From Microbispora corallina (GTDB taxonomy: Bacteria; Actinomycetota; Actinomycetes; Streptosporangiales; Streptosporangiaceae), in assembly GCF_016863035.1 (NCBI RefSeq), contig NZ_BOOC01000003.1:558001-622000 (forward strand): a stretch of DNA of 64,000 bases. The letters run 5' to 3'. A program made the position numbers and the translations under genes. The notes below the pieces were generated by a model. The model had not been told where the DNA came from. It made no database searches and saw nothing but the letters and a program-made list of their open reading frames with translations. Of this stretch, positions 23,272-62,905 are shown piece by piece. The stretch's first letter is position 1; each line of letters opens with the position of its first letter.

Positions 23272-25269
23272 TCAGCCGTCGGCGCCGAGACGGCGGAGGG
23301 CGTCGCGGACCTTGGCCGGGTCGGTGGTCCGCCAGAACGGCGGCAGGGAGCTCAGCAGGAAGCCGCTGTAGCGGGCCGTGGCGAGGCGCGGGTCGAGCAC
23401 GGCGACCACGCCCCGGTCGTCCATCGAGCGCAGGAGCCGGCCGGCGCCCTGGGCCAGCAGCAGGGCCGCGTGCGTCGCGGCCACCGACATGAAGCCGTTG
23501 CCGCCGGTCGCCGCCACGTGGCGCTGCCGGGCCGAGGCCAGCGGGTCGTCGGGCCGCGGGAACGGGATCCTGTCGATGAGGACGAGGGTCAGCGACGGCC
23601 CGGGCACGTCGACGCCCTGCCACAGCGACAGCGTGCCGAACAGGCAGGTCGCCGGGTCGGCGGCGAACTGCTTGACCAGCAGCGACGTCGAGTCGTCGCC
23701 CTGGCACAGCAGCGGCACGTCGAGCCGCTCCCGCAGCGCCTCGGTCGCCGCCTTGGCGGCCCGCATCGACGAGAACAGCCCGAGCGCCCGGCCTCCGGCC
23801 GCCTCGATCAGCTCGGCGATCTCGTTGACGTACGCCTCCGGGAGCCCGTCCCGGCCGGGCTGCGGCAGGTGCGAGGCCACGTAGAGGATGCCCCGCCGGG
23901 GATGGTCGAACGGCGACCCGACGTCGAGGCCGGTCCAGCCGTCCTTGCCGAGACCCCACTGGCGGGCCATGCCGTCGAAGGTGCCGCCGAGCGCGAGCGT
24001 GGCGCTGGTCAGGATCACGGTGCGGTCGCCGAAGAGCCGGTCGCGCAGCATGCCGCCGACCGACAGCGGCGCCACCCGCAGCGTGGGAGGGACGCGGACG
24101 CGGCCCTGCTGGTGAGCCGCCTCCAGCCACACCACCTCGGCCCGGTCCACCTCGGACTCCGCGCCGAAGGCGTCGAGCATCCGCTGCGCGGTGTCGTGGA
24201 CCTCGTCGAGGGCCGTGAAGGCGGCCTTGCGCAGGCCGGCGTTCTCCACGTCGTCGGCGCCCGATCCCCGGTCCTTGTTGCGCGGGCCGAGCGCGGTGAT
24301 GCACGCGAAGGCCGCGTCGCGGACGAGCGCGAGCGTCAGCCCCAGCGACTGGGGGAGCTCGTCGACGCGTCCGGCCGGGGCCACCGCCAGCAACGCCTGG
24401 AGATCCTCGCCCGCCTCCTGGAGGCGGTCGGCGAGGCCCTGCTCGATGAGCCGCCCCGCCCGCCGCACCGCGAGCCCCACGGTGGACTCCGACAGCTCGT
24501 CGGTGACCACGGACGTCACCCGGTCGGTCAGCTCGTGGGCCTCGTCGACCACCACGACGTCGTGCTCCGGCAGGACGAGCAGGTCCTCCATGGCGTCGAT
24601 CGCGAGCAGCGCGTGGTTGGTGACCACGACGTCGGCCTCGCCGGCGCGCTCGCGGGCCAGCTCGGCGAAGCACTCGGCGCCGCTGGGACACCGCTGGGCG
24701 CCCAGGCACTCCTTGGCCGTCACCGAGAACTGCCGCCACGCCTGGTCGCTCACCCCGGGCACCAGCTCGTCGCGGTCGCCGGTCTCGGTGTCGTTGGCCC
24801 ACTCCTGGATCCGCTGCACCATCCGCCCGGTCGCGCTCACCTCGCGGGGGTCGAAGAGCTGGTCGTCCTCGTCCTCCGGCATGCCCGCGCTCATCTTGTG
24901 CCGGCACAGGTAGTTGCGGCGGCCCTTGAGGATGGCGAACTCCGGCCGGTGCGGCAGCAGCCCCTCCAGCGTGTCGGCCAGCCTGGGCAGGTCGCGGTCG
25001 ACGAGCTGGCGCTGCAGCGCGATCGTCGCGGTCGACACCACCACGGCCTTGCCGCGATCCGCGGCGTGCCGGATCGCCGGGACCAGGTAGGCCAGGGACT
25101 TGCCGGTGCCGGTGCCGGCCTGGACGGCCAGATGCTCCTCGGACTCGATCGCGTCGCGCACGGCCTGGGCCATCTTCACCTGCCCGGGGCGCTCGGCCCC
25201 CCCGAGCCCGGTCACCGCGGCGGTGAGCAGTTCTTCGACGGGCGGAAGCTCCGGACGGTCCTTGGGCAC
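23272..25269 (-). CDS. dinG: DinG-family ATP-dependent DNA helicase
   Basis: The 665-residue superfamily 2 helicase has Walker A QAGTGTGKSLAYL, motif II VDEAH and the C-terminal motif QGAGRLLRS. Cysteines that could ligate the XPD/DinG iron-sulfur cluster lie in order (NYLCRHK, KECLGAQRCPSGAEC). It unwinds forked DNA 5'-3' and removes R-loops and D-loops in repair. The GTG start lies 6 nt after a TAGCGT -10 box. Its end is 4 nt from the convergent MOSC gene. Confidence 0.9.
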   Translation of the reverse strand: MPKDRPELPPVEELLTAAVTGLGGAERPGQVKMAQAVRDAIESEEHLAVQAGTGTGKSLAYLVPAIRHAADRGKAVVVSTATIALQRQLVDRDLPRLADTLEGLLPHRPEFAILKGRRNYLCRHKMSAGMPEDEDDQLFDPREVSATGRMVQRIQEWANDTETGDRDELVPGVSDQAWRQFSVTAKECLGAQRCPSGAECFAELARERAGEADVVVTNHALLAIDAMEDLLVLPEHDVVVVDEAHELTDRVTSVVTDELSESTVGLAVRRAGRLIEQGLADRLQEAGEDLQALLAVAPAGRVDELPQSLGLTLALVRDAAFACITALGPRNKDRGSGADDVENAGLRKAAFTALDEVHDTAQRMLDAFGAESEVDRAEVVWLEAAHQQGRVRVPPTLRVAPLSVGGMLRDRLFGDRTVILTSATLALGGTFDGMARQWGLGKDGWTGLDVGSPFDHPRRGILYVASHLPQPGRDGLPEAYVNEIAELIEAAGGRALGLFSSMRAAKAATEALRERLDVPLLCQGDDSTSLLVKQFAADPATCLFGTLSLWQGVDVPGPSLTLVLIDRIPFPRPDDPLASARQRHVAATGGNGFMSVAATHAALLLAQGAGRLLRSMDDRGVVAVLDPRLATARYSGFLLSSLPPFWRTTDPAKVRDALRRLGADG

Positions 25270-25275
25270 GGAAGA

Positions 25276-25281
25276 ACGCTA
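25276..25281 (-). promoter_or_regulatory. -10 box TAGCGT before dinG
   Basis: On the minus strand, TAGCGT ends 6 nt before the dinG GTG, implying a leaderless dinG mRNA. Confidence 0.55.
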
Positions 25282-25485
25282 CCCGCTGGCACCGACAACC
25301 GGTGCGTGACCGTCCCACCACATCCTGGCGTTCCAGGAACCCCCGCCTGCCGCACATGGCACACTGAATGTCACGCGCATTTGGTCAACGGCGATCCGCG
25401 GATAAAACGGCAAAGAGGTACGAAACGGACTTTCGCAAGGGTTTCCCCGAGGTCGAGTGGACGGATAAGGGCAGGTAAAGGCACT

Positions 25486-41218: not shown

Positions 41219-44176
41219 ATGAGCACGGCCCTCCCACCGCAGTACCACCCTGAGGGGCTTCGTGAGCCGGGGTCCGGACCTGAGGACCGCGATTCCTTCA
41301 CCAGAAAGCGACTGGCGCTGTGGGACAGGACGAAGTTCCTGATCCTGCTCGCCGTCGCTTTCGGCGTGCTGGTGTGGAACACCACGGCCACCTATCAGGG
41401 GATCATCCCGCTGTCGGACGCCTTCCTGCTGACCGTGCGGGACTCGTCCTGGATCCTCTGCCTCGCCGGCCTCGAGGTCGTCCGCCAGATCCACTTCCTG
41501 ATCAGCGAGCGCTCCGCGGGCTACCACCGCTTCTGGACCCACGGGGTCTTCGGCGGCTGGAACCGCTGGACGCACCGCCGCTTCAACGACTGGAACCGGT
41601 ACCGCATCGCGCGGGCCATCAAGTGGGCCGTCGCGATCGTCGTCATCGCGCTCGTGCTCGGCAAGGTGCAGAGCGTCTCGCCTCTCGAGGCGCTGTTCAA
41701 CGTGCCGGCCACGGTCTGGGGCTTCCTCCCGACCCTCCTGCAGGTCGTGCTGCTCATGCTGCTGGCCGTGGGCCAGTTCGTCGCGATCTTCTGGTTCCTC
41801 TCGCGGGGCGGCGTCGACGTCTACTTCCCCGACGACATCAAGACCCGCTTCTCCGACGTGTGGGGCCAGGACCACGTGGTCGAGCGGGTCAAGGAGAACA
41901 TCGTCTTCCTGGAGAAGCCCGACGAGATCGAGGCCAAGGGCGGCTACGTGCCGAGCGGCATCCTGCTCTGGGGCCCGCCCGGCACCGGCAAGACCCTGAT
42001 GGCCGAGGCCGTCGCCGGGTCCACCGGCAAGCCGTACGTGTTCGTCGACCCGGGCGCGTTCATCAACATGTTCTTCGGCGTCGGCGTGCTCAAGGTCAAG
42101 TCGCTGTTCCGCAAGCTGCGCAAGCTGGCCCTCCGGTACGGCGGCGTGATCGTGTTCTTCGACGAGGCCGACTCGCTCGGCAACCGCGGCGCCCTCGCCC
42201 AGGGCGGTCCCGGCGGCTGGGGGCGCTCCGTCCCCGCGCCGTTCGAGGACGCGGGCTGCAACGGCTTCGCCTACCTCGACCCGCACACCCGGCGGGTCCT
42301 CGGGCAGCGGGCCACGGCGGCCGCCGCCCCGGCGTCGCCCGGGGTCTCCCGCACCGGCGCGTTCGTCAACCGGCTCGTGTACGGCGGGGGGATGGGCGGC
42401 GGCGGTGGCGGCATGGGCACGCTGGAGGCCCTGCTCACCGAGATCTCCGGTCTGAAGAAGCCCCGCGGGTTCATCAACCGGCACGTGCGGCGACTGCTCG
42501 GCATGCGGCCCAAGCCGCCGCCGAAGTACCGCATCTTGATCATGATGGCCACCAACCTGCCGGAGGCCCTCGACGAGGCGCTGCTGCGCCCCGGCCGCAT
42601 CGACCGCATCTACAAGGTCGGCTACCCGTCGAAGGCGGGCCGGATCCGGACGTACAAGGGGTACTTCGACAAGGTTCGGCACGATCTCACCGACGAGCAG
42701 ATCGACAAGCTCGCCACCATCACGCCGTACGCCACCGGTGCGACGATCAAGGACCTCGTCAACGAGTCCCTGATCACCGCGATCCGCGACGGCCGGGACG
42801 TCATCACCTGGTCGGACGTCATGCGGGCGAAGCGGCTCAAGCAGCTCGGGCCGCCGGAGGACGTCGAGTACATCGAGCGTGAGCGGCACGCCGTGGCCGT
42901 GCACGAGGCGTGCCACGCCGTGGTCGCCTACCGGACGCGCCAGCACCTGGAGATCGACCTCGCGACGATCGAGAAGGGCGCCGACTACCTCGGCATGGTC
43001 GCCAGCATCAAGCCGGAGGACCAGTTCACCCGGTGGAAGTCGGAGTACGAGTCGGACATCATGGTGTCCCTCGCCTCACTCGCCGGGGAGCGGATGTTCT
43101 TCGGCGAGGACAACTCCTCGGGCGTCTCCGGCGACCTGCAGTCCGCCACCATGATCACCGGCCTGATGGAGGCCGTCTGGGGCATGGGCATCGGCGTGGC
43201 GTCGCTGCCCGCGCTGCAGGAGCTCGGGCTGCGCGAGGGCAAGGCGTCCCAGCCGCAGCCGGGCGGCGGCGGGACCGGCTTCACCGGCAGCCCCGCGGCC
43301 CGGCGCGACGAGATGGTGCCGGACATGCTGCCCGAGCGCATCGAGTTCAACCTCGCCCAGCTGCTGGAGAAGACGGCCGAGCTGATCAGGGAGAACCGGC
43401 GGTCCGTGCTGACGGTCGCGCACGCCCTCGAACAGCACAAGACGCTGAACGGCGACGACGTGGTGGCCGTGATCGAGGGCCGCGTCGGCCCGCTCATCGA
43501 CGGCACGGTCTACAACTCCGACGATTTCTACGAGGAGATCGAGGCCTACCACACGGCCGCGGTCGAGGCGCACCGCAGCCACAGCACGGTCCCGATCGAG
43601 CTGCCGCTGCCCGCGCAGCGCGCGGTCGAGGCGGCGGTCGTGGTGGCGCCGGTCGGCGGCCCGCCCGTCTTCGCCCCGGCCCAGCCGAACGGCTCGTACA
43701 ACGGCGGCGGCCACGTCATCCAGCCGATGCAGCCGGTCCCGCCGGACTTCATCCCCTGGAGCGGCGCGGGAACCCCGCCGCCTCCGCCGCCGCTGCTCGG
43801 GCCGCCTCCCGCGCGCCCACGCCGCAGGTCGCGCGGCGTCCTGTGGGCCGTGGTCGGGGTCGTCGTGGCGGTCGTGGCGCTGGTGCTTGTCGGGCTGGCG
43901 ATCCTGGGCGGCGCCCACGGCTCGTCCGCCACGGGCGCGGCGCAGGGCGTGCCCACCGGCCCGGCGATCGTCCTGACGCTCGCGCTGGTCGCGGTCGTCG
44001 GCGGCATCGTGGTGGCCGTGCTGCTGGTGCGGGCCCACCAGTCCGGGCGCCGGCAGGCCGAGGAGGCCAGGGACCGGGCTGCCGAGCGGGCACAACTGCT
44101 GGCGGCCGCGATGGACCCGGAGGTCGCGATGCGGCTGCTCGGGTACGACGGCCGGCGAGGGCCCGACCCCTCCTGA
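41219..44176 (+). CDS. Atypical FtsH-like membrane AAA+ metalloprotease
   Basis: The 985-residue protein has four probable N-terminal membrane helices (residues 40-195), an AAA+ domain with Walker A GPPGTGKT (252-259), Walker B with D315/E316, and the SRH RPGRIDR (457-463). A protease domain follows with HEACH (562-566) and a third ligand Asp (D639). Between Walker B and sensor 1 there is a Gly/Ala-rich insert of about 70 residues, absent from normal FtsH. After the protease comes a Pro-rich linker and two more membrane helices (about 877-902 and 918-942). It is larger than standard FtsH (about 650) and probably degrades membrane proteins. It follows a lipoprotein gene by 13 nt. Confidence 0.8.
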   Translation: MSTALPPQYHPEGLREPGSGPEDRDSFTRKRLALWDRTKFLILLAVAFGVLVWNTTATYQGIIPLSDAFLLTVRDSSWILCLAGLEVVRQIHFLISERSAGYHRFWTHGVFGGWNRWTHRRFNDWNRYRIARAIKWAVAIVVIALVLGKVQSVSPLEALFNVPATVWGFLPTLLQVVLLMLLAVGQFVAIFWFLSRGGVDVYFPDDIKTRFSDVWGQDHVVERVKENIVFLEKPDEIEAKGGYVPSGILLWGPPGTGKTLMAEAVAGSTGKPYVFVDPGAFINMFFGVGVLKVKSLFRKLRKLALRYGGVIVFFDEADSLGNRGALAQGGPGGWGRSVPAPFEDAGCNGFAYLDPHTRRVLGQRATAAAAPASPGVSRTGAFVNRLVYGGGMGGGGGGMGTLEALLTEISGLKKPRGFINRHVRRLLGMRPKPPPKYRILIMMATNLPEALDEALLRPGRIDRIYKVGYPSKAGRIRTYKGYFDKVRHDLTDEQIDKLATITPYATGATIKDLVNESLITAIRDGRDVITWSDVMRAKRLKQLGPPEDVEYIERERHAVAVHEACHAVVAYRTRQHLEIDLATIEKGADYLGMVASIKPEDQFTRWKSEYESDIMVSLASLAGERMFFGEDNSSGVSGDLQSATMITGLMEAVWGMGIGVASLPALQELGLREGKASQPQPGGGGTGFTGSPAARRDEMVPDMLPERIEFNLAQLLEKTAELIRENRRSVLTVAHALEQHKTLNGDDVVAVIEGRVGPLIDGTVYNSDDFYEEIEAYHTAAVEAHRSHSTVPIELPLPAQRAVEAAVVVAPVGGPPVFAPAQPNGSYNGGGHVIQPMQPVPPDFIPWSGAGTPPPPPPLLGPPPARPRRRSRGVLWAVVGVVVAVVALVLVGLAILGGAHGSSATGAAQGVPTGPAIVLTLALVAVVGGIVVAVLLVRAHQSGRRQAEEARDRAAERAQLLAAAMDPEVAMRLLGYDGRRGPDPS

Positions 44177-48994: not shown

Positions 48995-49540
48995 TCACTG
49001 GCCCGTCCTCCCGTCGACGCGCTCGCGGAGCAGGTCGGCGTGGCCGTTGTGCCGGGCGTACTCGGCGATCATGGCGACGAGGATGCGCCGCAGGGAGATG
49101 GGCCGTCCGGTCGCCCGCTGGACCCCAGTGGCGTCGAGGGACGGCGTCGCGGCGACGATCTCCCGTGACCGCTCGCACTCGGCCCGCCACACCGCGAAGG
49201 CCTCGTCGACGTCGCCCCCGAGGTCGTCGAAGTCCTGGTCGGGATCGTCGTCGGAGTAATAGAGGAGGGGCAGGTCCTCTCCCGCGAACTGGATGCGGAA
49301 CCACCACCGCTCCACGCCCGCCAGATGGCGGACGAGACCGTGCAGGCTCAGGCCCGACGGCGGCACGCTCTTGTCGGACAGCCGCTCCGGCGGCACTCCC
49401 GCGCACTTGCCCGCGAACGTCTCTCTGTGCCAGTCGAGGAAGGCGGTGAGGATCTCGCGCTCGTCGCCCACGAGCGGAAGCTCCAGACGGGAGCCGCCCT
49501 GCCATTGCGGGGAGTAGTTGTCGGAGGGGATCTCAGTCAT
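48995..49540 (-). CDS. DinB-like metal-binding protein (DUF664/mycothiol-dependent type)
   Basis: The 181-residue helical bundle has the DinB/DUF664 pattern: DWHRETFAGKC, SLHGLVRHLAGVERWWFRIQFAG and a C-terminal EYARHNGHADLLRE. Three histidines (in WHRE, LVRHLAG and EYARHNGHAD) fit the metal triad of this family. Actinomycete members include mycothiol- and bacillithiol-dependent S-transferases. It lies 42 nt upstream (same strand) of the LuxR gene and may be in its operon. Confidence 0.85.
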   Translation of the reverse strand: MTEIPSDNYSPQWQGGSRLELPLVGDEREILTAFLDWHRETFAGKCAGVPPERLSDKSVPPSGLSLHGLVRHLAGVERWWFRIQFAGEDLPLLYYSDDDPDQDFDDLGGDVDEAFAVWRAECERSREIVAATPSLDATGVQRATGRPISLRRILVAMIAEYARHNGHADLLRERVDGRTGQ

Positions 49541-49623
49541 GGGACAAGCATGTCAGCAGGCACCGACAAGACCGCTCGTCATGGCGTTGACCTGGGGGAA
49601 AGGGTTTTGTCGGAGCGGCTGGC

Positions 49624-49629
49624 TAGTGT
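49624..49629 (+). promoter_or_regulatory. -10 box TAGTGT before the SWIM-MoxR operon
   Basis: TAGTGT ends 7 nt before the GTG that starts the conserved SWIM protein, so the whole five-gene operon probably has a leaderless first gene. Confidence 0.6.
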
Positions 49630-49636
49630 GCGGAGC

Positions 49637-51004
49637 GTGATCGAACGGTGGAGCCGGGACCAGGTCCTCGCGCTGGTGCCCGACGCGGCGTCGCAGCGGG
49701 CGGCCGCCGGTGTGAGCGCGCCCGGGAAGTGGTCGGGCGCGGGCGCCCTTCCGGGCGTCGTCTGGGGGGAGTGCAAGGGCAGCGGGGCCACGCCGTACCG
49801 GGCCTGTGTCGACCTGGGCGAGCCCGCCTACCGGTGCAGCTGCCCCAGCCGCAAGTTCCCGTGCAAGCACGCGCTCGGGCTGCTGCTCCTGTGGTCGGCG
49901 GACGGCGTCCCCCAGGCGGACGAGCCCACCGCGTGGGTCGCCGAATGGCTGGACCAGCGCCGCGCCCGGGCGGAGAAGAAGCCCGCGCCCCCGGATGCCG
50001 GGGCGTCCGCGGACACCGCGGACGACGCGGAGGCCGTCGTGCCGTCCGGGCCGGGTGCGGGCGAGGCCCGGGGCGGGGGCGCGGCGGCCGCGGCGAGACG
50101 GAGCACGGCCGAGCAGCGTGAGAGCAGGGTCGCGGCCGGGCTGTCGGAGCTGGAGCGGTGGCTGCGCGACCAGATCGCCCAGGGCGTCGCGCAGACCCCG
50201 CAGACGGGGCTCGCGGAGTGGGACGGCCTGGCCCGGCGGCTCGTCGACGCACAGGCGCCCGGCGCCGCCGGCGTCGTCGCCCGCCTGTCACGGGTGCTCG
50301 CGCGCGAGGAGTGGCCGGGGCTGCTCCTGCAGGAGTACGCGCTGCTCCACCTGCTCGCGGTGGCGCACCGCCGCGCGGAGGCGCTACCCGGGGGGTTGCG
50401 GGATACGGTCCGCTCCCGCGTCGGGTTCCCGGTGTCCCGGGAGAGCGTGCTGGCGTCGCCGCCCGTCCGTGACCACTGGGACGTCGTCGGAAGCCGTGAC
50501 GAGGAGCAGGACCGCCTCGTCGCCCGCAGGGTCTGGCTCGCCGGTCGGGGGACCGGCCGGATGGCGCTGGTCCTGTCGTTCGCGCCGGTGGGGCAGGCGC
50601 TCGACGCCTCGCTCGTCCCCGGCACGACGATCGACGCCGACCTCACGTTCTACCCCGGGTCGTCCCCGCTGCGGGCTCTCGTGGCGGAGCGGTACGGGCG
50701 GGTGGCGGCCGGGCCGCCGCCGGGGACCAAGGTCGCCGGGATACCGGCGCTGATCGCCGAGGTGCTCGCGGGCGACCCGTGGGCCGACTCCTGGCCGGTG
50801 GTGCTGGCCGACGTCGTCCCGTCCGCCGAGGGACTCGTGGGCGACGAGGGCGACCTGCTGCCGCTGCACCCCTCTGCCGGGGCCCCCTGGCGGCTGATGG
50901 CCGTCTCCGGCGGCCACCCGCTGACGGTGGCGGCCGAATGGACGCCGCGAGGGCTGCGGCCGCTCGCGACATGGGACGACGAGGGCCAGGTGGTGCGGTT
51001 ATGA
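49637..51004 (+). CDS. SWIM zinc-finger family protein (YehQ-like)
   Basis: The 455-residue protein begins with MIERWSRDQVLALVPDA, the standard start of this family, and has the SWIM motif C67-x-C69-n-C76-x-H78 in CSCPSRKFPCKHALGLLLLW. An Ala/Pro/Gly-rich linker follows (about residues 115-160), then a helical/beta C-terminal part (RMALVLSFAPVGQALDASLVPGTTIDADLTFYPG). The GTG sits 7 nt from a TAGTGT box; an ATG 29 codons upstream is an alternative but has no -10 box. SWIM fingers usually bind DNA or protein. It opens a five-gene overlapping operon. Confidence 0.85.
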   Translation: MIERWSRDQVLALVPDAASQRAAAGVSAPGKWSGAGALPGVVWGECKGSGATPYRACVDLGEPAYRCSCPSRKFPCKHALGLLLLWSADGVPQADEPTAWVAEWLDQRRARAEKKPAPPDAGASADTADDAEAVVPSGPGAGEARGGGAAAAARRSTAEQRESRVAAGLSELERWLRDQIAQGVAQTPQTGLAEWDGLARRLVDAQAPGAAGVVARLSRVLAREEWPGLLLQEYALLHLLAVAHRRAEALPGGLRDTVRSRVGFPVSRESVLASPPVRDHWDVVGSRDEEQDRLVARRVWLAGRGTGRMALVLSFAPVGQALDASLVPGTTIDADLTFYPGSSPLRALVAERYGRVAAGPPPGTKVAGIPALIAEVLAGDPWADSWPVVLADVVPSAEGLVGDEGDLLPLHPSAGAPWRLMAVSGGHPLTVAAEWTPRGLRPLATWDDEGQVVRL

Positions 51005-52578
51005 CGACCTCACAGCAGGAATCGGCGCCCCCGCCCGCCGCCGGCGCGCTCGGGGCAGGCCGCGAGCCGGAAGGACCCGCGGAGGGCGCGGCGCGGGTAG
51101 CGGCGGGGCCGGTCGGTGCGCTCGGGGCAGGCCGCGAGCGGGAGAGACCCGCGGGGGATGCGGCGCCGGTCGCGGCGGTAGCGGCGGGGCCGGGCGGTCC
51201 GGCAGGGGCGGCGGGGTCCGGCGGCGCACGGATGCCGTGGGAGGAGCTGGTGTCCACCGCGCTGGTGGGCGCCGACAGGCGCGGGGTCGCGCCGGAGGAC
51301 CTGCTGGAGCAGGCCGCCGTGCAGACCGTGCGCATGCGGGCAGGCCGGCGGCCGCGTGGGGGCCGGCCGCCGGCGCCCGCGCCGGAGGAGACGCTGCCCG
51401 CGGTGTCGGCCCAGGCGGGCGACCGGCTGGCCCGCATGCTGGCGGGCGAGCAGGCCCGGCTGCTGCCGGAATGGCTGGAGGTCGCGGCCTCGCGTCGCGT
51501 CCGGGTCCCGGCACGGCTCATCCCCGGGCTGCTCGACCTCGGTGCCCGCGACCGGTCCGTCAGGTCCCATCTCGCGGCCGTGACCGGCGCCCGTGGCCGC
51601 TGGCTGGCCGGGCTCAACGATGCGTGGGCCTACCTGCTGGAGGAGGCGGCCCACGTGCCGCCCGCGGAGGTGTGGGAGTTCGGCACGAGCGGCGACCGCC
51701 GGGCGTTCCTGGCCGCGCTGCGCGAGCGGGACCCGGGCGCCGCCCGGGACCTGCTCGGACGCGGCTGGCCTGCCGAGACGCCGGAGGACCGCGCCGCGTT
51801 CGTGGCCATCCTCGCCTCCGGACTGACGATGGACGACGAGCCGTTCCTGGAGGCGGCGCTCGACGACCGCCGCCGGGAGGTGAGGCAGGCCGCGGCCGAC
51901 CTGCTCACCCGGCTGCCCGGCTCGCGTCTCGGACGGCGCATGTCCGAGCGGGCCGGCCGCCTCGTACGGCCGGAGGGGCGGGGCCTGCGCGCCGAGCCGC
52001 CGAAGGCGTGCGACAGCACGATGGAGCGCGACGGCGTCCGGGCCCGGCCGCCGGCGGGGATGGCGCAGCGCGGGTGGTGGCTCCAGCAGGTGGTGGCGCA
52101 CACCCCGCTGTCCTTCTGGAGGGCTCACGTCGGCCTCGCCCCCGGCGCCGTCGTCCGGCTCCCGCTCGGCGACTGGGCGCGCGAGGTCAGGATGGGCTGG
52201 ACCAGGGCGGCCATCCTCCAGCGCGACGCCGAGTGGGCCCGGGCCCTGTTCGAGGCCGAGCCGCTCACCGACCTGCTGGCCGTCCTGCCGCCCGAGGAGC
52301 AGTCGAACCGCGCGGCGGAGCTGGTGCGCGGGCAGCAGGTCGACGGCCAGATGATCATGATGTTGGGCGGCGTGGCGCGGCCCTGGGGGCCTCAGCTGAC
52401 GAAGGCCGTGCTGAAGAAGATCGTGGAGACGGCCGAGACGCAGCCGTGGAACGCCGGTGAGCTGATCAGGCTGGCCGGGGAGCGGCTCGACCCCGCTGTG
52501 CACGCCCGCGCCCACGAGGTCCCCGAGCTGGCCGCGATCCTGCGGTTCCGCTTCGACATGACGAAGGAGCTTTCGTGA
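51001..52578 (+). CDS. DUF5691 protein
   Basis: The 525-residue protein matches the DUF5691 layout: MPWEELVSTALVGADRRGVAPEDLLEQAAVQTVRMRAGRRP followed by helical repeats (RLIPGLLDLGARDRSVRSHLAAVTGARGRWL, TPEDRAAFVAILASGLTMDDEPFLEAALDDRR) and LLQQVVAHTPLSFWRAHVG. Its first 75 residues are low-complexity with a duplicated 24-residue unit (period 72 nt, starts 51046 and 51118). The function is unknown; the helical repeats suggest a scaffold. It overlaps the SWIM stop by 4 nt (ATGA). Confidence 0.8.
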   Translation: MTTSQQESAPPPAAGALGAGREPEGPAEGAARVAAGPVGALGAGRERERPAGDAAPVAAVAAGPGGPAGAAGSGGARMPWEELVSTALVGADRRGVAPEDLLEQAAVQTVRMRAGRRPRGGRPPAPAPEETLPAVSAQAGDRLARMLAGEQARLLPEWLEVAASRRVRVPARLIPGLLDLGARDRSVRSHLAAVTGARGRWLAGLNDAWAYLLEEAAHVPPAEVWEFGTSGDRRAFLAALRERDPGAARDLLGRGWPAETPEDRAAFVAILASGLTMDDEPFLEAALDDRRREVRQAAADLLTRLPGSRLGRRMSERAGRLVRPEGRGLRAEPPKACDSTMERDGVRARPPAGMAQRGWWLQQVVAHTPLSFWRAHVGLAPGAVVRLPLGDWAREVRMGWTRAAILQRDAEWARALFEAEPLTDLLAVLPPEEQSNRAAELVRGQQVDGQMIMMLGGVARPWGPQLTKAVLKKIVETAETQPWNAGELIRLAGERLDPAVHARAHEVPELAAILRFRFDMTKELS

Positions 52579-53642
52579 CCACCGTTCTGCGCCCGCACGC
52601 GGAAGACCAGTACGCGGACGAGCTGGCGATCCTGGCCAAGACCGACGACCGGCCGCGCCCTCCCGGCTGGCGCCTGTCGCCCTGGGCGGTGACCACGTAC
52701 GTCCTCGGCGACGGCGGCCAGATCACCCCCAAGTACATCGGCCCCCGGCGCATCGTCGAGGTGGCGGTGGCGACGCTCGCCACCGACCGGGCCCTGCTCC
52801 TGCTCGGCGTGCCGGGGACCGCCAAGACGTGGCTGTCGGAGCACCTCGCGGCGGCCGTCAGCGGCGACTCGACCCTCCTCGTCCAGGGCACGGCCGGCAC
52901 GGCGGAGGAGGCCGTCCGCTACGGGTGGAACTACGCCCGCCTCCTCGCGGAGGGCCCTTCCCGCGAGGCGCTGACCCCCAGCCCGGTGATGCGCGCCATG
53001 GCCGAGGGACGGCTGGCCCGGGTGGAGGAGCTGACCCGGATGCCGTCCGACGTGCAGGACGCGCTCATCACCGTGCTGTCGGAGAAGACGCTGCCGATTC
53101 CCGAACTGGGCGAGGAGGTCCAGGCGGCCAAGGGCTTCAATGTCATCGCGACGGCCAACGACCGCGACCGCGGCGTCAACGACCTGTCGAGCGCGCTGCG
53201 CCGGCGCTTCAACACCGTCGTCCTGCCGGTCCCGGCCAGCGCCGAGGAGGAGGTCGAGATCGTCGCCCGCCGGGTGGCCCAGCTCGGCCGGTCGCTCGAG
53301 CTTCCCGACGCCGTCGCGGGGCTGGAGGAGATCCGCCGGGTGGTGACCGTCTTCAGGGAGTTGCGCTCCGGCGTCACCGCCGACGGCCGGACCAAGGTCA
53401 AGTCGCCGAGCGGCACTCTCAGCACCGCCGAGGCGATCTCGGTGGTGACCAGCGGCGTCGTGCTCGCCACGCACTTCGGGGACGGCGTGCTGCGGCCGGC
53501 CGACGTCGCGGGCGGCATCCTGGGCGCCGTCGTGCAGGACCCGGTGTCCGACCGGGTGGTCTGGCAGGAGTACCTGGAGACCGTCGTCCGCGACCGGGAG
53601 GACTGGCGCGACTTCTACCGGGCCTGCCGCGATGCGAGCTGA
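52575..53642 (+). CDS. MoxR-type AAA+ ATPase (YehL-like)
   Basis: The 355-residue AAA+ protein has Walker A G78-V-P-G-T-A-K-T85, a Walker B/sensor region with LARVEELTRMPSDVQDALITVLSEK, sensor 1 ATANDRDRG, and an arginine finger/SRH ALRRRFNTV. MoxR ATPases act as chaperone-like remodellers that work with VWA-domain proteins, here encoded two genes downstream. It overlaps the DUF5691 stop (GTGA) and the DUF5682 start by 11 nt, so co-translation is strong. Confidence 0.9.
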   Translation: MTTVLRPHAEDQYADELAILAKTDDRPRPPGWRLSPWAVTTYVLGDGGQITPKYIGPRRIVEVAVATLATDRALLLLGVPGTAKTWLSEHLAAAVSGDSTLLVQGTAGTAEEAVRYGWNYARLLAEGPSREALTPSPVMRAMAEGRLARVEELTRMPSDVQDALITVLSEKTLPIPELGEEVQAAKGFNVIATANDRDRGVNDLSSALRRRFNTVVLPVPASAEEEVEIVARRVAQLGRSLELPDAVAGLEEIRRVVTVFRELRSGVTADGRTKVKSPSGTLSTAEAISVVTSGVVLATHFGDGVLRPADVAGGILGAVVQDPVSDRVVWQEYLETVVRDREDWRDFYRACRDAS

Positions 53643-56043
53643 CGCCGCCGTCCCCCACGGAACCGGCGCACCAGCTGGGACGGACTCGCCCGTGGAGACG
53701 CGGGCACCTGAGGGGACGGACTCACCCCCGGCGACGCTCGCGCCGGCCAGGACCGGCGTGCCGACCCTGGCCGCCGACGCCGCGGCCACTCCCATAGCCG
53801 CCGCCGTGACCACCCCCGCGGCCGGCGCCACCGCCACCGATGCCGTTGACGCGGAGGGTGGCGGACGGGTGCGGGGCGTCGCGGGGGCGAGGCGGGCGGG
53901 CGGCGAGGAGCCCGCGATCGCGGTCCTGGGCGTGCGCCACCACGGTCCGGGCTCGGCCCGGGCGGTCCGAGCGGAGCTCGAACGGCTGCGGCCGGACGTC
54001 GTGCTCATCGAGGGGCCGCCGGAGGCGGACGCCCTCGTGCCGCTGGCCGCCGACCCCGAGATGCGGCCGCCGGTAGCACTCCTCGCCCACGTGCCGGGAG
54101 ACCCGTCGAAGGCCGCCTTCTGGCCGTTCGCCGTCTTCTCCCCGGAATGGCAGGCGATCGCGTACGCGGTGGAGGCCGGGGTCGAGGTCCGCTTCTGCGA
54201 CCTGCCCGCCGCCCACACTCTGGCGCTCGACGCCGACCCCGTCCTCCGCGACCCCATCGGCGAGCTGGCGGAGGCCGCGGGGTACGACGACCCGGAGCGG
54301 TGGTGGGAGGACCTGGTCGAGCATCGGGGGGAGACCGGCACGCTCGACGTCGTCGCCGAGGCGATGACGGCCGTGCGCGAGGGTCACGTGGCGGACGGCA
54401 CCGAGGCGCTCCGGGAGGCGTACATGCGGTCCGTCCTGAGGAAGGCCGTGCGGGACGGCCACCGGAACATCGCCGTCGTCTGCGGCGCCTGGCACCTGCC
54501 GGCGCTCACCGAACTGCCGCCCGCCGCGCGGGACGAACGGCTGCTGCGCGGCCTGCCCAAGGTGAAGGTCGCGATGACCTGGGTGCCGTGGACGCACGGG
54601 AGGCTGGCCGCCGCCGGCGGCTACGGCGCGGGCGTCGCCTCCCCGGGCTGGTACGACCACCTGTTCGCCAGCCCGCGCCGCCCCATCGAGCGGTGGCTGA
54701 CCCGGGCCGCCCACGTCCTGCGGGAGGAGGGTCTGCCGGTCTCGTCCGCCCACGTCATCGAGGCGGTGCGGCTGGCTGTCAGCCTGGCCGCGCTGCGCGG
54801 CCGGCCGCTCGCCGGTCTCTCGGAGGTCACCGAGGCGGCCAGGGCCGTGCTGTGCGAGGGCGACGACCTGGCCGTGGAGCTGATCGGGCGCCGGATGGTG
54901 GTGGGCGAGCGGCTCGGGCACGTCCCCGACTCGACGCCGATGGTCCCGCTGCAGCGGCATCTCCGGGAGGAGCAGCGGCGGGTGCGGCTCAAGCCCGAGG
55001 CGCTGTCCCGCGAGCACGACCTCGACCTGCGCAAGCCCCTCGACCTCGAACGGAGCCGCCTGCTGCACCGCCTCGGCATGCTCGGCGTCCCGTGGGGGAC
55101 GACCCGGCAGGCGCGGGGCAAGGGCACGTTCCGGGAGTCGTGGACGCTGGAGTGGCGTCCCGAGTTCGACGTGGCGCTGATCGAGGCGGCCGCCTGGGGG
55201 ACCACGGTCGAGGGCGCGGCGTCGGCGCGCGCCCGCGACCTGTCGGCCTCGCCCCACCTGAACGAGCTCACCGCGCTGGTCGAGCGCTGCCTGCTCGCGC
55301 ACCTGCCCGACGCGCTGCCCCGGGTCCTGCGGGCCATCGAGGACAGGGCCGCGCTCGACAGCGAGGTGCGCCACCTGATGGCGGCGCTGCCCGCGCTCGT
55401 GCGGGCCCACCGGTACGGCGACGTTCGCGGCACCGAGGGGCTGGGCCCGATCGCCGAGTCGCTGCTCGCCCGGATCTGCGCGGGCCTGTCCCCGGCCCTG
55501 ACCGGGCTCGACGACGACTCGGCGCGGGAGATGCTCGCGCTGATCGACGGGGTCCACGGCGCCGTGGCGCTCATGGAGACCGACCGCTGGCTGCCGACCC
55601 TGGCGGGGATCGCGGGCCGGGCCGGCCTGCCGGGCCTCGTCGAAGGCCGCGTCGTGCGGATCCTGTTCGACGCCGGCGCGCTCCCGGAGGGCGACGACGT
55701 GGCCACGCGGATGGCGCGGGCGATGTCGCCGGGCAACCCGCCCGCGCGGGCGGCGTCCTGGATGGAGGGCTTCCTGTCGGGCGGGGGCCTGCTGCTCGTG
55801 CACGACGCCCGCCTGCTGGCCACGGTGGACGGGTGGCTCACCGGGCTCTCGCCGGAGGCGTTCGTCGACGTGCTGCCCCTGCTGCGGCGGACGTTCGGGG
55901 CCTTCGCACCGCCCGAAAGGCGCATGATCGGCGACCGCGTCCGGTCCGGCCCGGTCGCGCCCGACCCGGAGACCGCAGCGTACGACGACGACCTGGCTGC
56001 GGGCGCTGTGCGGACGGTCCTCGAGATCCTGGGGAAGGCATGA
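53632..56043 (+). CDS. DUF5682 protein with TIKI/TraB-like GX2H motifs (YehM-like)
   Basis: The 803-residue protein starts with about 85 low-complexity Ala/Thr/Pro residues. The conserved part has IAVLGVRHHGPGSARAV (G100-x-x-H103), PDVVLIEGPPEADAL (E127) and IAVVCGAWHLPAL (G285-x-x-H288). Two GX2H motifs plus this Glu are the hallmark of the TIKI/TraB/EreA metalloprotease-like superfamily; that placement is my inference. The rest is a helical body with YMRSVLRKAVRDG, PSRRPIERWL and a WTLEWRPEFDVALIEAAAWG block. It sits between MoxR ATPase and VWA genes. Confidence 0.82.
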   Translation: MRADAAVPHGTGAPAGTDSPVETRAPEGTDSPPATLAPARTGVPTLAADAAATPIAAAVTTPAAGATATDAVDAEGGGRVRGVAGARRAGGEEPAIAVLGVRHHGPGSARAVRAELERLRPDVVLIEGPPEADALVPLAADPEMRPPVALLAHVPGDPSKAAFWPFAVFSPEWQAIAYAVEAGVEVRFCDLPAAHTLALDADPVLRDPIGELAEAAGYDDPERWWEDLVEHRGETGTLDVVAEAMTAVREGHVADGTEALREAYMRSVLRKAVRDGHRNIAVVCGAWHLPALTELPPAARDERLLRGLPKVKVAMTWVPWTHGRLAAAGGYGAGVASPGWYDHLFASPRRPIERWLTRAAHVLREEGLPVSSAHVIEAVRLAVSLAALRGRPLAGLSEVTEAARAVLCEGDDLAVELIGRRMVVGERLGHVPDSTPMVPLQRHLREEQRRVRLKPEALSREHDLDLRKPLDLERSRLLHRLGMLGVPWGTTRQARGKGTFRESWTLEWRPEFDVALIEAAAWGTTVEGAASARARDLSASPHLNELTALVERCLLAHLPDALPRVLRAIEDRAALDSEVRHLMAALPALVRAHRYGDVRGTEGLGPIAESLLARICAGLSPALTGLDDDSAREMLALIDGVHGAVALMETDRWLPTLAGIAGRAGLPGLVEGRVVRILFDAGALPEGDDVATRMARAMSPGNPPARAASWMEGFLSGGGLLLVHDARLLATVDGWLTGLSPEAFVDVLPLLRRTFGAFAPPERRMIGDRVRSGPVAPDPETAAYDDDLAAGAVRTVLEILGKA

Positions 56044-56094
56044 CGACGGGCACGGGCGGACGCGCGTGGACAACGGCCGACGGAGGAGGGCGTG

Positions 56095-57234
56095 ATGGGC
56101 GAGCCGGAGCGTGACGAGCGGGCCCGGCGGTGGCGGCTGGTGCTCGGCGGCGCCGCCGCGGGCGGCCTGGAGGGGGCCGACGCGCGGATGGACGCGGCGC
56201 TCGCCGCCCTGTACGACGGCGGGGGCGAGCGCGGCGCCGGGCTCGGCGGGTCCGCCCCGAGGGTGGCCCGGTGGCTGGGGGACATCCGGGAGTTCTTCCC
56301 CTCGACCGTCGTCCAGGTCATGCAGCAGGACGCCATCGAACGGCTCGACCTGACCCGGCTGCTCCTCGAACCGGAGATGCTGGAGGCCGTCGAGCCCGAC
56401 GTCCACCTCGTGGGCACGCTCCTGTCGCTGAACCGCCTCATGCCCGAGCGCGCCCGCGAGTCCGCGCGGGCCGTGGTCCGCAGGGTCGTCGCCCAACTGG
56501 AGGCGCGGCTGGCCCGGCGCACCCGGGCGGCCGTGACGGGCGCGCTCGACCGGTCGGCCAGGACGCACCGGCCCCGGCGGGCGGCCGACATCGACTGGCA
56601 CCGCACGATCCGCGCCAACCTGAAGAACTACCTGCCCGATCGCGGCACGCTCGTCCCGTCCCGGCTCGTCGGCTACGGACGGCGCCGGCAGGCCGTGCAG
56701 CGGGAGGTGGTGCTCTGCGTCGACCAGAGCGGCTCGATGGCGGCCTCCGTCGTCTACTCGAGCGTGTTCGGGGCGGTGCTCGCGTCCATGCGCTCGCTGC
56801 GGACCTCGCTCGTCGTCTTCGACACGGCCGTCGTCGACCTCACCGAGCAGCTGACCGACCCGGTGGACGTCCTGTTCGGCACCCAGCTCGGCGGCGGGAC
56901 CGACATCAACCGGGCCATCGCGTACTGCCAGGGCCTGATCACCCGGCCGGCCGACACGATCTTCCTGCTCATCAGCGACCTGTACGAGGGGGGCGTGCGG
57001 GAGGAGATGCTGCGCCGGGTCGCGGCGATGACGGCGGCGGGCGTCCAGGTGATCGTGCTGCTGGCCCTGTCCGATGAAGGGACGCCGCAGTACGACCACG
57101 ACAACGCGGCGGCGCTGGCGGCCATGGGCGTCCCGGCGTTCGCCTGCACGCCGGACGCGTTCCCCGACCTGATGGCGGCGGCGATCGAACGGAGGTCCTA
57201 CGACCAAATTCCGATGGCCTCGCGCGGGTCCTGA
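56095..57234 (+). CDS. VWA-domain protein (YehP-like)
   Basis: The 379-residue protein ends in a von Willebrand factor A domain with an intact MIDAS: D210-x-S212-x-S214 in CVDQSGSM, T269 in GGGTDIN and D295 in LISDLYEGG. The N-terminal half is helical (PRVARWLGDIREFFPSTVVQVMQQDAIERLDLTRLLLEPEMLEAV). The MIDAS should bind metal and a partner's acidic residue, as in MoxR/VWA systems. The ATG has GGAGGAGGG 4-8 nt upstream. It ends the five-gene operon. Confidence 0.9.
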   Translation: MGEPERDERARRWRLVLGGAAAGGLEGADARMDAALAALYDGGGERGAGLGGSAPRVARWLGDIREFFPSTVVQVMQQDAIERLDLTRLLLEPEMLEAVEPDVHLVGTLLSLNRLMPERARESARAVVRRVVAQLEARLARRTRAAVTGALDRSARTHRPRRAADIDWHRTIRANLKNYLPDRGTLVPSRLVGYGRRRQAVQREVVLCVDQSGSMAASVVYSSVFGAVLASMRSLRTSLVVFDTAVVDLTEQLTDPVDVLFGTQLGGGTDINRAIAYCQGLITRPADTIFLLISDLYEGGVREEMLRRVAAMTAAGVQVIVLLALSDEGTPQYDHDNAAALAAMGVPAFACTPDAFPDLMAAAIERRSYDQIPMASRGS

Positions 57235-62802: not shown

Positions 62803-62899
62803 GGCTCATCCGTTTACCGAATCCAGGCTAAGTCATTACTCGATCGGGATCGCGACCGCCAGTGGGATCATTGGGACCACTTTTGTCGGAGGGACCTGT

Positions 62900-62905
62900 T
62901 AGCTT
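62900..62905 (+). promoter_or_regulatory. -10 box TAGCTT before sbcD
   Basis: TAGCTT ends 8 nt before the sbcD ATG, with an extended TGT just before it; the transcript is probably leaderless. Confidence 0.55.

Follow-up and report, generated by a model that had tools for sequence, protein, structure and literature searches.

Midasin (Rea1) and NorQ are ring ATPases that work with partners bearing a metal ion-dependent adhesion site (MIDAS). By sequence, Midasin (2.7e-20) and the NorQ of the NorQ/NorD pair (6.6e-12) are also the closest solved relatives of a MoxR/YehL-type AAA+ ATPase encoded in a 64-kb stretch of Microbispora corallina DNA, referred to below as the window, although their clients and partners differ from those of the system considered here. 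In the window, this ATPase belongs to a five-gene operon that further encodes a SWIM zinc-finger protein, a DUF5691 protein, a DUF5682 protein, and a von Willebrand factor A (VWA) protein of the VWA_CoxE family. MoxR-VWA pairs are presumed to hold on to a peptide and remodel the bound protein (PMC7159879, section 8). Regulation of the operon by DNA damage is strongly supported by its promoter, and the operon is probably a core-genome DNA-damage-response machine, in which a damage-induced and perhaps proteolytic MoxR-VWA segregase would be aimed by the SWIM and DUF5691 proteins.

PafBC-type control is a RecA-independent response to DNA damage. In Mycobacterium tuberculosis, the PafBC motif is given as TGTCGG-N10-TA-N3-T, with TGTCAG or TGTCAC allowed (PMC8151990), and promoters of this kind, designated RecA-NDp, have been described beyond mycobacteria and in Streptomyces (PMC8223512, PMC5087735). 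The exact published motif of the mycobacterial regulon stands at the present operon as TGTCGG-N10-TAGTGT: the element TTGTCGGAG lies exactly 8 nucleotides (nt) upstream of TAGTGT (49624-49629), which ends 7 nt before the GTG start codon at 49637. An earlier note on this DNA had assigned a shared promoter, TAGTGT, to the position before the SWIM gene without seeing the upstream TTGTCGGAG. That assignment is borne out, and the identity of the promoter is the new result of the present analysis, TAGTGT being, on its sequence, the -10 box of a PafBC-type promoter. Since the Hymenobacter and Deinococcus homologues of the SWIM protein begin within a few residues of the point marked by GTG 49637, the operon message is likely to be leaderless. 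With the divergent site listed in Table 1, the mycothiol-S-transferase/DinB_2 gene and the operon may form a bidirectional damage-responsive pair. The operon is not named as a member of the PafBC regulon in the excerpts of the literature on that regulon.

The same type of site recurs in the window and throughout the host genome. Searched with at most one mismatch, the pattern TTGTCRGTG-N8-TAnnnT gives four sites in the window against a shuffle mean of 0.05, and 0 of 100 shuffles reach four; the sites precede the gene for a DinG-type helicase, the mycothiol-S-transferase/DinB_2 gene, the five-gene operon, and sbcD. Those before the DinG-type helicase gene and sbcD are useful internal controls. 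Across the whole genome, 55 sites are found, compared with 9 for the reversed pattern. Downstream frames were listed for 25 of the 55 sites, one of them being the DinG-type gene of the window; 13 others were scanned with Pfam, and these are not a random sample because they were picked after their first residues had been viewed. Six of the 13 belong to repair or replication (RecA, UvrA, the NAD-dependent DNA ligase LigA, the DNA polymerase beta clamp DnaN, an exonuclease/GIY-YIG protein, and an AlkZ-like glycosylase), four to other families (an integrase, a WYL regulator, an N-acetyltransferase, and an isochorismatase), while the remaining three comprise one DEAD/ResIII helicase and two proteins with no family match. 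The pattern very probably marks real damage promoters in M. corallina. A search aimed at PafC and Pup ligase located a PafC gene (helix-turn-helix (HTH) match, 2.5e-40) and two Pup-ligase-family genes on one host contig (C25). A possible secondary damage regulator is encoded 7 nt downstream of a PafBC-type site (L139, C3:249604) by a WYL/HTH gene other than this main PafC match.

Table 1. Coordinates of the operon, its promoter, and related sites in the window
Feature	Position	Strand	Basis or context
PafBC / RecA-NDp type DNA-damage promoter, TTGTCGGAG-N8-TAGTGT	49607..49629	+	Sequence match to published motif
SWIM zinc-finger protein P0001	49637..51004	+	Pfam SWIM 4.3e-6
DUF5691 protein P0002	51001..52578	+	Pfam DUF5691 8e-136
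MoxR/YehL-type AAA+ ATPase P0003	52575..53642	+	Pfam AAA_5 1.1e-38
DUF5682 protein P0004	53632..56043	+	Pfam DUF5682 1.1e-267
N-terminal TraB/Tiki-like domain of DUF5682 (G100xxH103, E127, G285xxH288)	53908..54651	+	Foldseek and profile comparison
VWA_CoxE protein P0005, MIDAS residues intact	56092..57234 (56095 if ATG)	+	Pfam VWA_CoxE 3.6e-58
Divergent site of the same kind, one mismatch	49547..49569	-	Before mycothiol-S-transferase/DinB_2 gene, 48995-49540 (-)
PafBC-type site before DinG-type helicase gene (23272-25269, -)	25276-25298	-	
PafBC-type site before sbcD (62914 onwards)	62883-62905	+	

The five genes span 49637-57234 on the plus strand in the array described by the earlier note, with overlaps of 4, 4, and 11 nt followed by a last gap of 48 nt (GTG 56092) or of the 51 nt first reported (ATG 56095). 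Motif and sensor residues look intact in the ATPase (GVPGTAKT, which we take to be the Walker A motif, ATAN, and RR, presumably the finger), in the VWA protein (DQSGS...GGGT...ISD, taken to be the MIDAS), and in the SWIM protein (CxCx6CxH, presumably the SWIM motif). The succession of MoxR, DUF5682, and VWA, a mark of YehL-type MoxR systems, is found here. The host genome measures 8.36 Mb, and the best matches to its MoxR protein are those of Microbispora and other Streptosporangiaceae (94%).

Conservation of the unit was assessed by a scan with the MoxR alignment, one genome per species, from which the best 80 of 576 loci were taken; since all 80 are actinobacterial, the distribution outside Actinobacteria is known from plasmid records and Escherichia coli only. 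BLASTP detected MoxR in 80 of these loci, DUF5682 in 79, SWIM in 78, DUF5691 in 74, and VWA in 73. The complete set is present in 68 of the 80, so the association is not a matter of chance and the conserved unit suggested previously is upheld by this neighborhood search. In 11 of the 12 incomplete loci a contig end cuts the unit, and the twelfth (L095) has only 521 nt before MoxR. Flanking genes outside the unit are common to at most 3 of 12 genera, and the five genes are therefore the unit. The 78 loci with SWIM fall into two layouts, namely a single colinear operon (33 loci) and two divergent operons (45, Streptomyces), with SWIM-DUF5691 opposite MoxR-DUF5682-VWA. In Hymenobacter, one 1009-aa protein combines SWIM-like and DUF5691 parts, its first half being 39% identical to P0001, while DUF5682 and VWA are fused in one protein in Streptomyces atratus and a single stop-free frame matches a DUF5682-VWA fusion in four more actinobacterial loci. 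Together, the fusions and the divergent operons indicate two modules, SWIM-DUF5691 and MoxR-DUF5682-VWA. The same five-gene order is found in Deinococcus (L115), Rhizobium (L118), and Methylosinus (L117). On the Methylosinus plasmid, VWA is unannotated and looks broken, because its tblastn pieces fall in three frames (L117:9373-10319). An extra small gene lies between MoxR and DUF5682 in Deinococcus (L115:6747-6983) and in Hymenobacter (L116:6374-6985). Within the window's order DUF5682 occurs in 141 of 150 genomes, and within the phylum in 17 of 198; the five-gene system looks like core, patchily inherited equipment rather than a mobile defense island.

The damage motif accompanies this unit in most of the actinobacterial loci. 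When the published form TGTC[AG]G-N10-TA-N3-T was searched as a strict motif upstream of SWIM in the 78 loci, it was present in 59 (43 of 45 divergent and 16 of 33 colinear), compared with 0 of 78 for the reversed control. Its distances are nearly fixed, at -38 in 35 loci, -71 in 8, -28 to -30 in 15, and -24 in 1. All 80 loci together contain 100 strict sites, 41 of which lie outside the SWIM promoter regions. At one non-actinobacterial locus, that of Deinococcus taeanensis (L115), a sequence resembling the radiation/desiccation response motif (RDRM), TTATGTTTCTGGCGTAA, stands on the minus strand at 2723-2739, where it ends 19 nt upstream of the annotated start of SWIM and adjoins a promoter, TTGACA/TACAAT, that was identified by eye. 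The sequence matches the DdrO consensus TATGYYHTTARCRKA (PMC8533742) at 13 of 15 positions. In 200 Markov shuffles of the entire 16.2 kb, a 13/15 site turns up somewhere in 14, so placement of TTATGTTTCTGGCGTAA at this promoter by chance is unlikely, for this one locus.

The DUF5682 protein appears to begin with a TraB/Tiki-like domain, a pattern spotted from its sequence before the fold search. AlphaFold models of 711 residues of the protein (predicted local distance difference test score, pLDDT, 88) and of a 248-residue N-domain (pLDDT 86.6) were compared by Foldseek. The full-length matches were mostly helical-repeat proteins, and in the viral library BFVD a single protein, of the TraB family, was hit at E <=0.001 (E 1.8e-6, probability 1.00). 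A local profile comparison set R261-E262...G285xxH288 on RN...GALH of TraB with an E-value of 0.0017, against 0.17-0.62 for five controls; an earlier hhalign run against TraB, represented by YbaP alone, had failed (E 0.13). All 20 of the DUF5682 sequences counted have G100, H103, E127, R261, E262, G285, and H288 in common; three sequences (Deinococcus, PVRHH; Fusobacterium, GVRHF; a fecal contig, GIRHL) were excluded from the count because their first motif varies. The N-domain thus has in common with the TraB/Tiki family a fold match and a layout that we take to be GX2H...E...GX2H. It departs from that family in being joined to about 450 mostly helical residues and in lacking a match to PF01963, which none of the five proteins matched in the Pfam scan. 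According to its model the N-domain is TraB-like without being a PF01963 member, in keeping with the metallo-domain protein suspected beforehand, and it may be a putative metallo-peptidase, the fold being supported and the activity predicted. An erythromycin-esterase-like reading of DUF5682 was rejected, as its hhalign E-value of 0.025 in a first alignment became 0.17, within the control range, in a wider one, and PDB 2rad_B reached only rank 9 (E 0.17).

The yehL-yehM-yehP genes of E. coli resemble this operon in order and in sequence, with identities of 44% for MoxR, 27% for DUF5682, and 38% for VWA. A SWIM protein, YehQ, is present there by annotation, but it is encoded last and gives no significant BLASTP alignment with P0001; the yeh region of MG1655 also differs in having no annotated DUF5691 gene and in carrying DUF4132 and PF05406 (WGR) genes upstream (yehF/yehI). 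The likeness to yehQ/L/M/P drawn by the earlier note therefore stands for L, M, and P and not for Q. Of 5426 E. coli genomes, 5284 carry yehM, with a coverage of 80% or more in 5166, and plasmids of Sinorhizobium, Allorhizobium, and Iodobacter carry this second (DUF4132/WGR, yeh-like) type, with a WGR-DUF4132 protein in Sinorhizobium. The open-licence literature in PubMed Central, in which two articles mention at least two of yehL, yehM, yehP, and yehQ, yielded no function for these genes and no mention of DUF5682 or DUF5691, although subscription papers on the operon may exist. In the same literature, MoxR, SWIM zinc finger, and von Willebrand were not found together, and where SWIM zinc fingers were sought in connection with DNA damage and mitomycin in actinobacteria, the SWIM term was not used among the matches listed. 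Another DUF5682 system, seen in Streptomyces and relatives (L121, L186-L189), consists of a large protein without a Pfam family (1640 aa in S. atratus), a MoxR, and a DUF5682-VWA fusion, with a SWIM-like protein in four of the five loci. Elsewhere in the window, a gene at 41219-44176 (+) encodes a 985-aa FtsH-like protein (AAA and Peptidase_M41) with a long proline-rich C-terminal part.

In the proposed mechanism, DNA damage would activate PafBC, which would switch the operon on from TTGTCGGAG-N8-TAGTGT at the SWIM start, a step that the promoter sequence strongly supports. As in Midasin and NorQ/NorD, the MoxR ring would then work with the VWA protein, whose MIDAS may serve to hold a target, and the long helical DUF5682 protein, with its TraB/Tiki-type domain, might cut that target. 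The SWIM and DUF5691 proteins would form a targeting module that guides the machine to its place of action, either DNA itself or a protein bound to it. In this way, proteins hindering the repair of damaged DNA would be extracted and perhaps cleaved. Complex formation, target, and catalysis are predicted here from the protein families; the substrate-remodeling machine envisaged in the earlier note is plausible and supported as an idea, with its biochemistry likewise predicted.

Several observations weigh against this reading. No expression data or mutant phenotype for the operon was found. The strict motif is missing upstream of SWIM in 19 of the 78 loci. In five of these the start assigned to SWIM is unreliable, the BLAST match beginning within the protein, and six, of the Actinoplanes group (L050, L052, L058, L086, L094, L110), carry at the same place the variant [TC]GTCGTAC-N8-TAnnnT, possibly the local PafBC motif of that group. 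Four others (L037, L077, L096, L106) show only a near-match under a looser pattern, that of Cellulomonas L096 being the published TGTCAC form, and four (L044, L056, L066, L098) give no match even then. In the divergent loci, the MoxR side never shows the strict motif (0 of 45); all 45 fit once C is accepted as the first letter of the -10 box, a loosening adopted when the sequences had already been viewed. Furthermore, the M. smegmatis PafBC motif is reported as not conserved in S. venezuelae (PMC9380542). The strict LexA box CTGT-N8-ACAG is absent from the 26-kb yeh region of E. coli, where a weaker CTG-N10-CAG site stands just before yehF, and no alphaproteobacterial LexA box stands immediately upstream of the Rhizobium or the Methylosinus operon. 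LexA boxes were considered before the Sinorhizobium and Allorhizobium operons as well and rejected for want of a convincing site, one GTTC-N7-GTTC lying 700 nt before the Sinorhizobium MoxR. For DUF5682, the template modeling (TM) scores of the TraB match are low (0.39/0.44), the local TraB profile probability is only 15%, TraB (0.52) is not distinct from the controls in global profile mode, and neither the full-length protein nor the N-domain has a PDB Foldseek hit at E 0.001 or better. Protease activity of TRABD-type TraB proteins is itself described as an open question (PMC12329661).

A more specific version of the damage-response reading would make the operon a bacterial counterpart of the p97-SPRTN pair of eukaryotes, in which the damage-induced AAA+ segregase (MoxR-VWA), the TraB-like DUF5682 as putative metalloprotease, and SWIM-DUF5691 as zinc-finger module directed to DNA clear proteins crosslinked or stalled on damaged DNA, the system having been recruited independently by regulators of different phyla; in this full form the proposal is unlikely. 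An improbable alternative is that MoxR and VWA act as a maturation chaperone of the CoxDE/NorQD kind, inserting metal into one enzyme complex or assembling it, with the damage promoter just adding copies under stress. The VWA_CoxE and NorQ similarities are consistent with such a function, maturases of this sort are among the described MoxR-VWA systems (PMC7159879, section 8), and molybdopterin metabolism has been suggested for a DUF4132-type cousin (PMC8533742). However, the poorly conserved flanks include no client enzyme gene kept beside the unit, and the promoter is of the damage type in Actinobacteria and, at one locus, in Deinococcus. More doubtful again is a signaling or proteolytic switch rather than a repair machine, in which DUF5682 would cleave one regulator after damage, for instance in restarting growth. 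Animal Tiki proteins cleave certain Wnt ligands (PMC12329661) and the damage-type control of the operon would suit such a switch, but it leaves unexplained why an AAA+ ring, SWIM, and DUF5691 stay together over phyla.

MoxR-vWA ternary conflict systems (Kaur et al. 2020, PMC7159879) share with this operon a MoxR and vWA core, to which they add further components. The operon differs from them in that no VMAP, iSTAND, FtsH, or beta-propeller third component is matched by Pfam among the five proteins, and its bpMoxR match (7e-6) is below the cut-off; SWIM, YehL, and DUF5691 are not mentioned in the main text of that article. PADLOC returned no relevant match, only IetA at 0.003 on ATPase residues 66-95. 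A scan of viral contigs gave no relative with DUF5691 as bait and two distant matches (22-27%) with MoxR, while a scan of phage records gave one unverified 14-kb fecal "bacteriophage" contig with a DUF5682 gene (MT835988.1, L124), which may be mislabeled bacterial DNA. Two PHROG families, whose function is not described, match DUF5682 (1.3e-37) and VWA (9.8e-69), and phage-associated copies therefore exist somewhere. Despite the shared core idea, the bpMoxR match, and the PHROG families, an anti-phage or biological-conflict system that takes DNA damage as an infection signal, a defense role also raised by the earlier note, is the least probable alternative and was rejected in view of the wide chromosomal spread (the counts in the window's order and for yehM), the PADLOC result, the near-absence from the viral and phage collections scanned, the fact that none of the five proteins has an effector-type domain passing the Pfam cut-off, and the damage-type promoter. 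MT835988.1 and the two PHROG families stand unexplained against this rejection.

The yehM/DUF5682 system is widespread, and no function for it was found in the open-licence literature; its placement in the DNA-damage response, as a damage-induced MoxR-VWA machine, provides a testable role. The likely PafBC regulon thereby gains a widespread operon in bacteria other than mycobacteria, among them Streptomyces, for which one article doubted conservation of the motif (PMC9380542). If the proposal is true, ATP-driven and possibly proteolytic clearing of damaged chromosomes would take its place beside the known cellular proteases.

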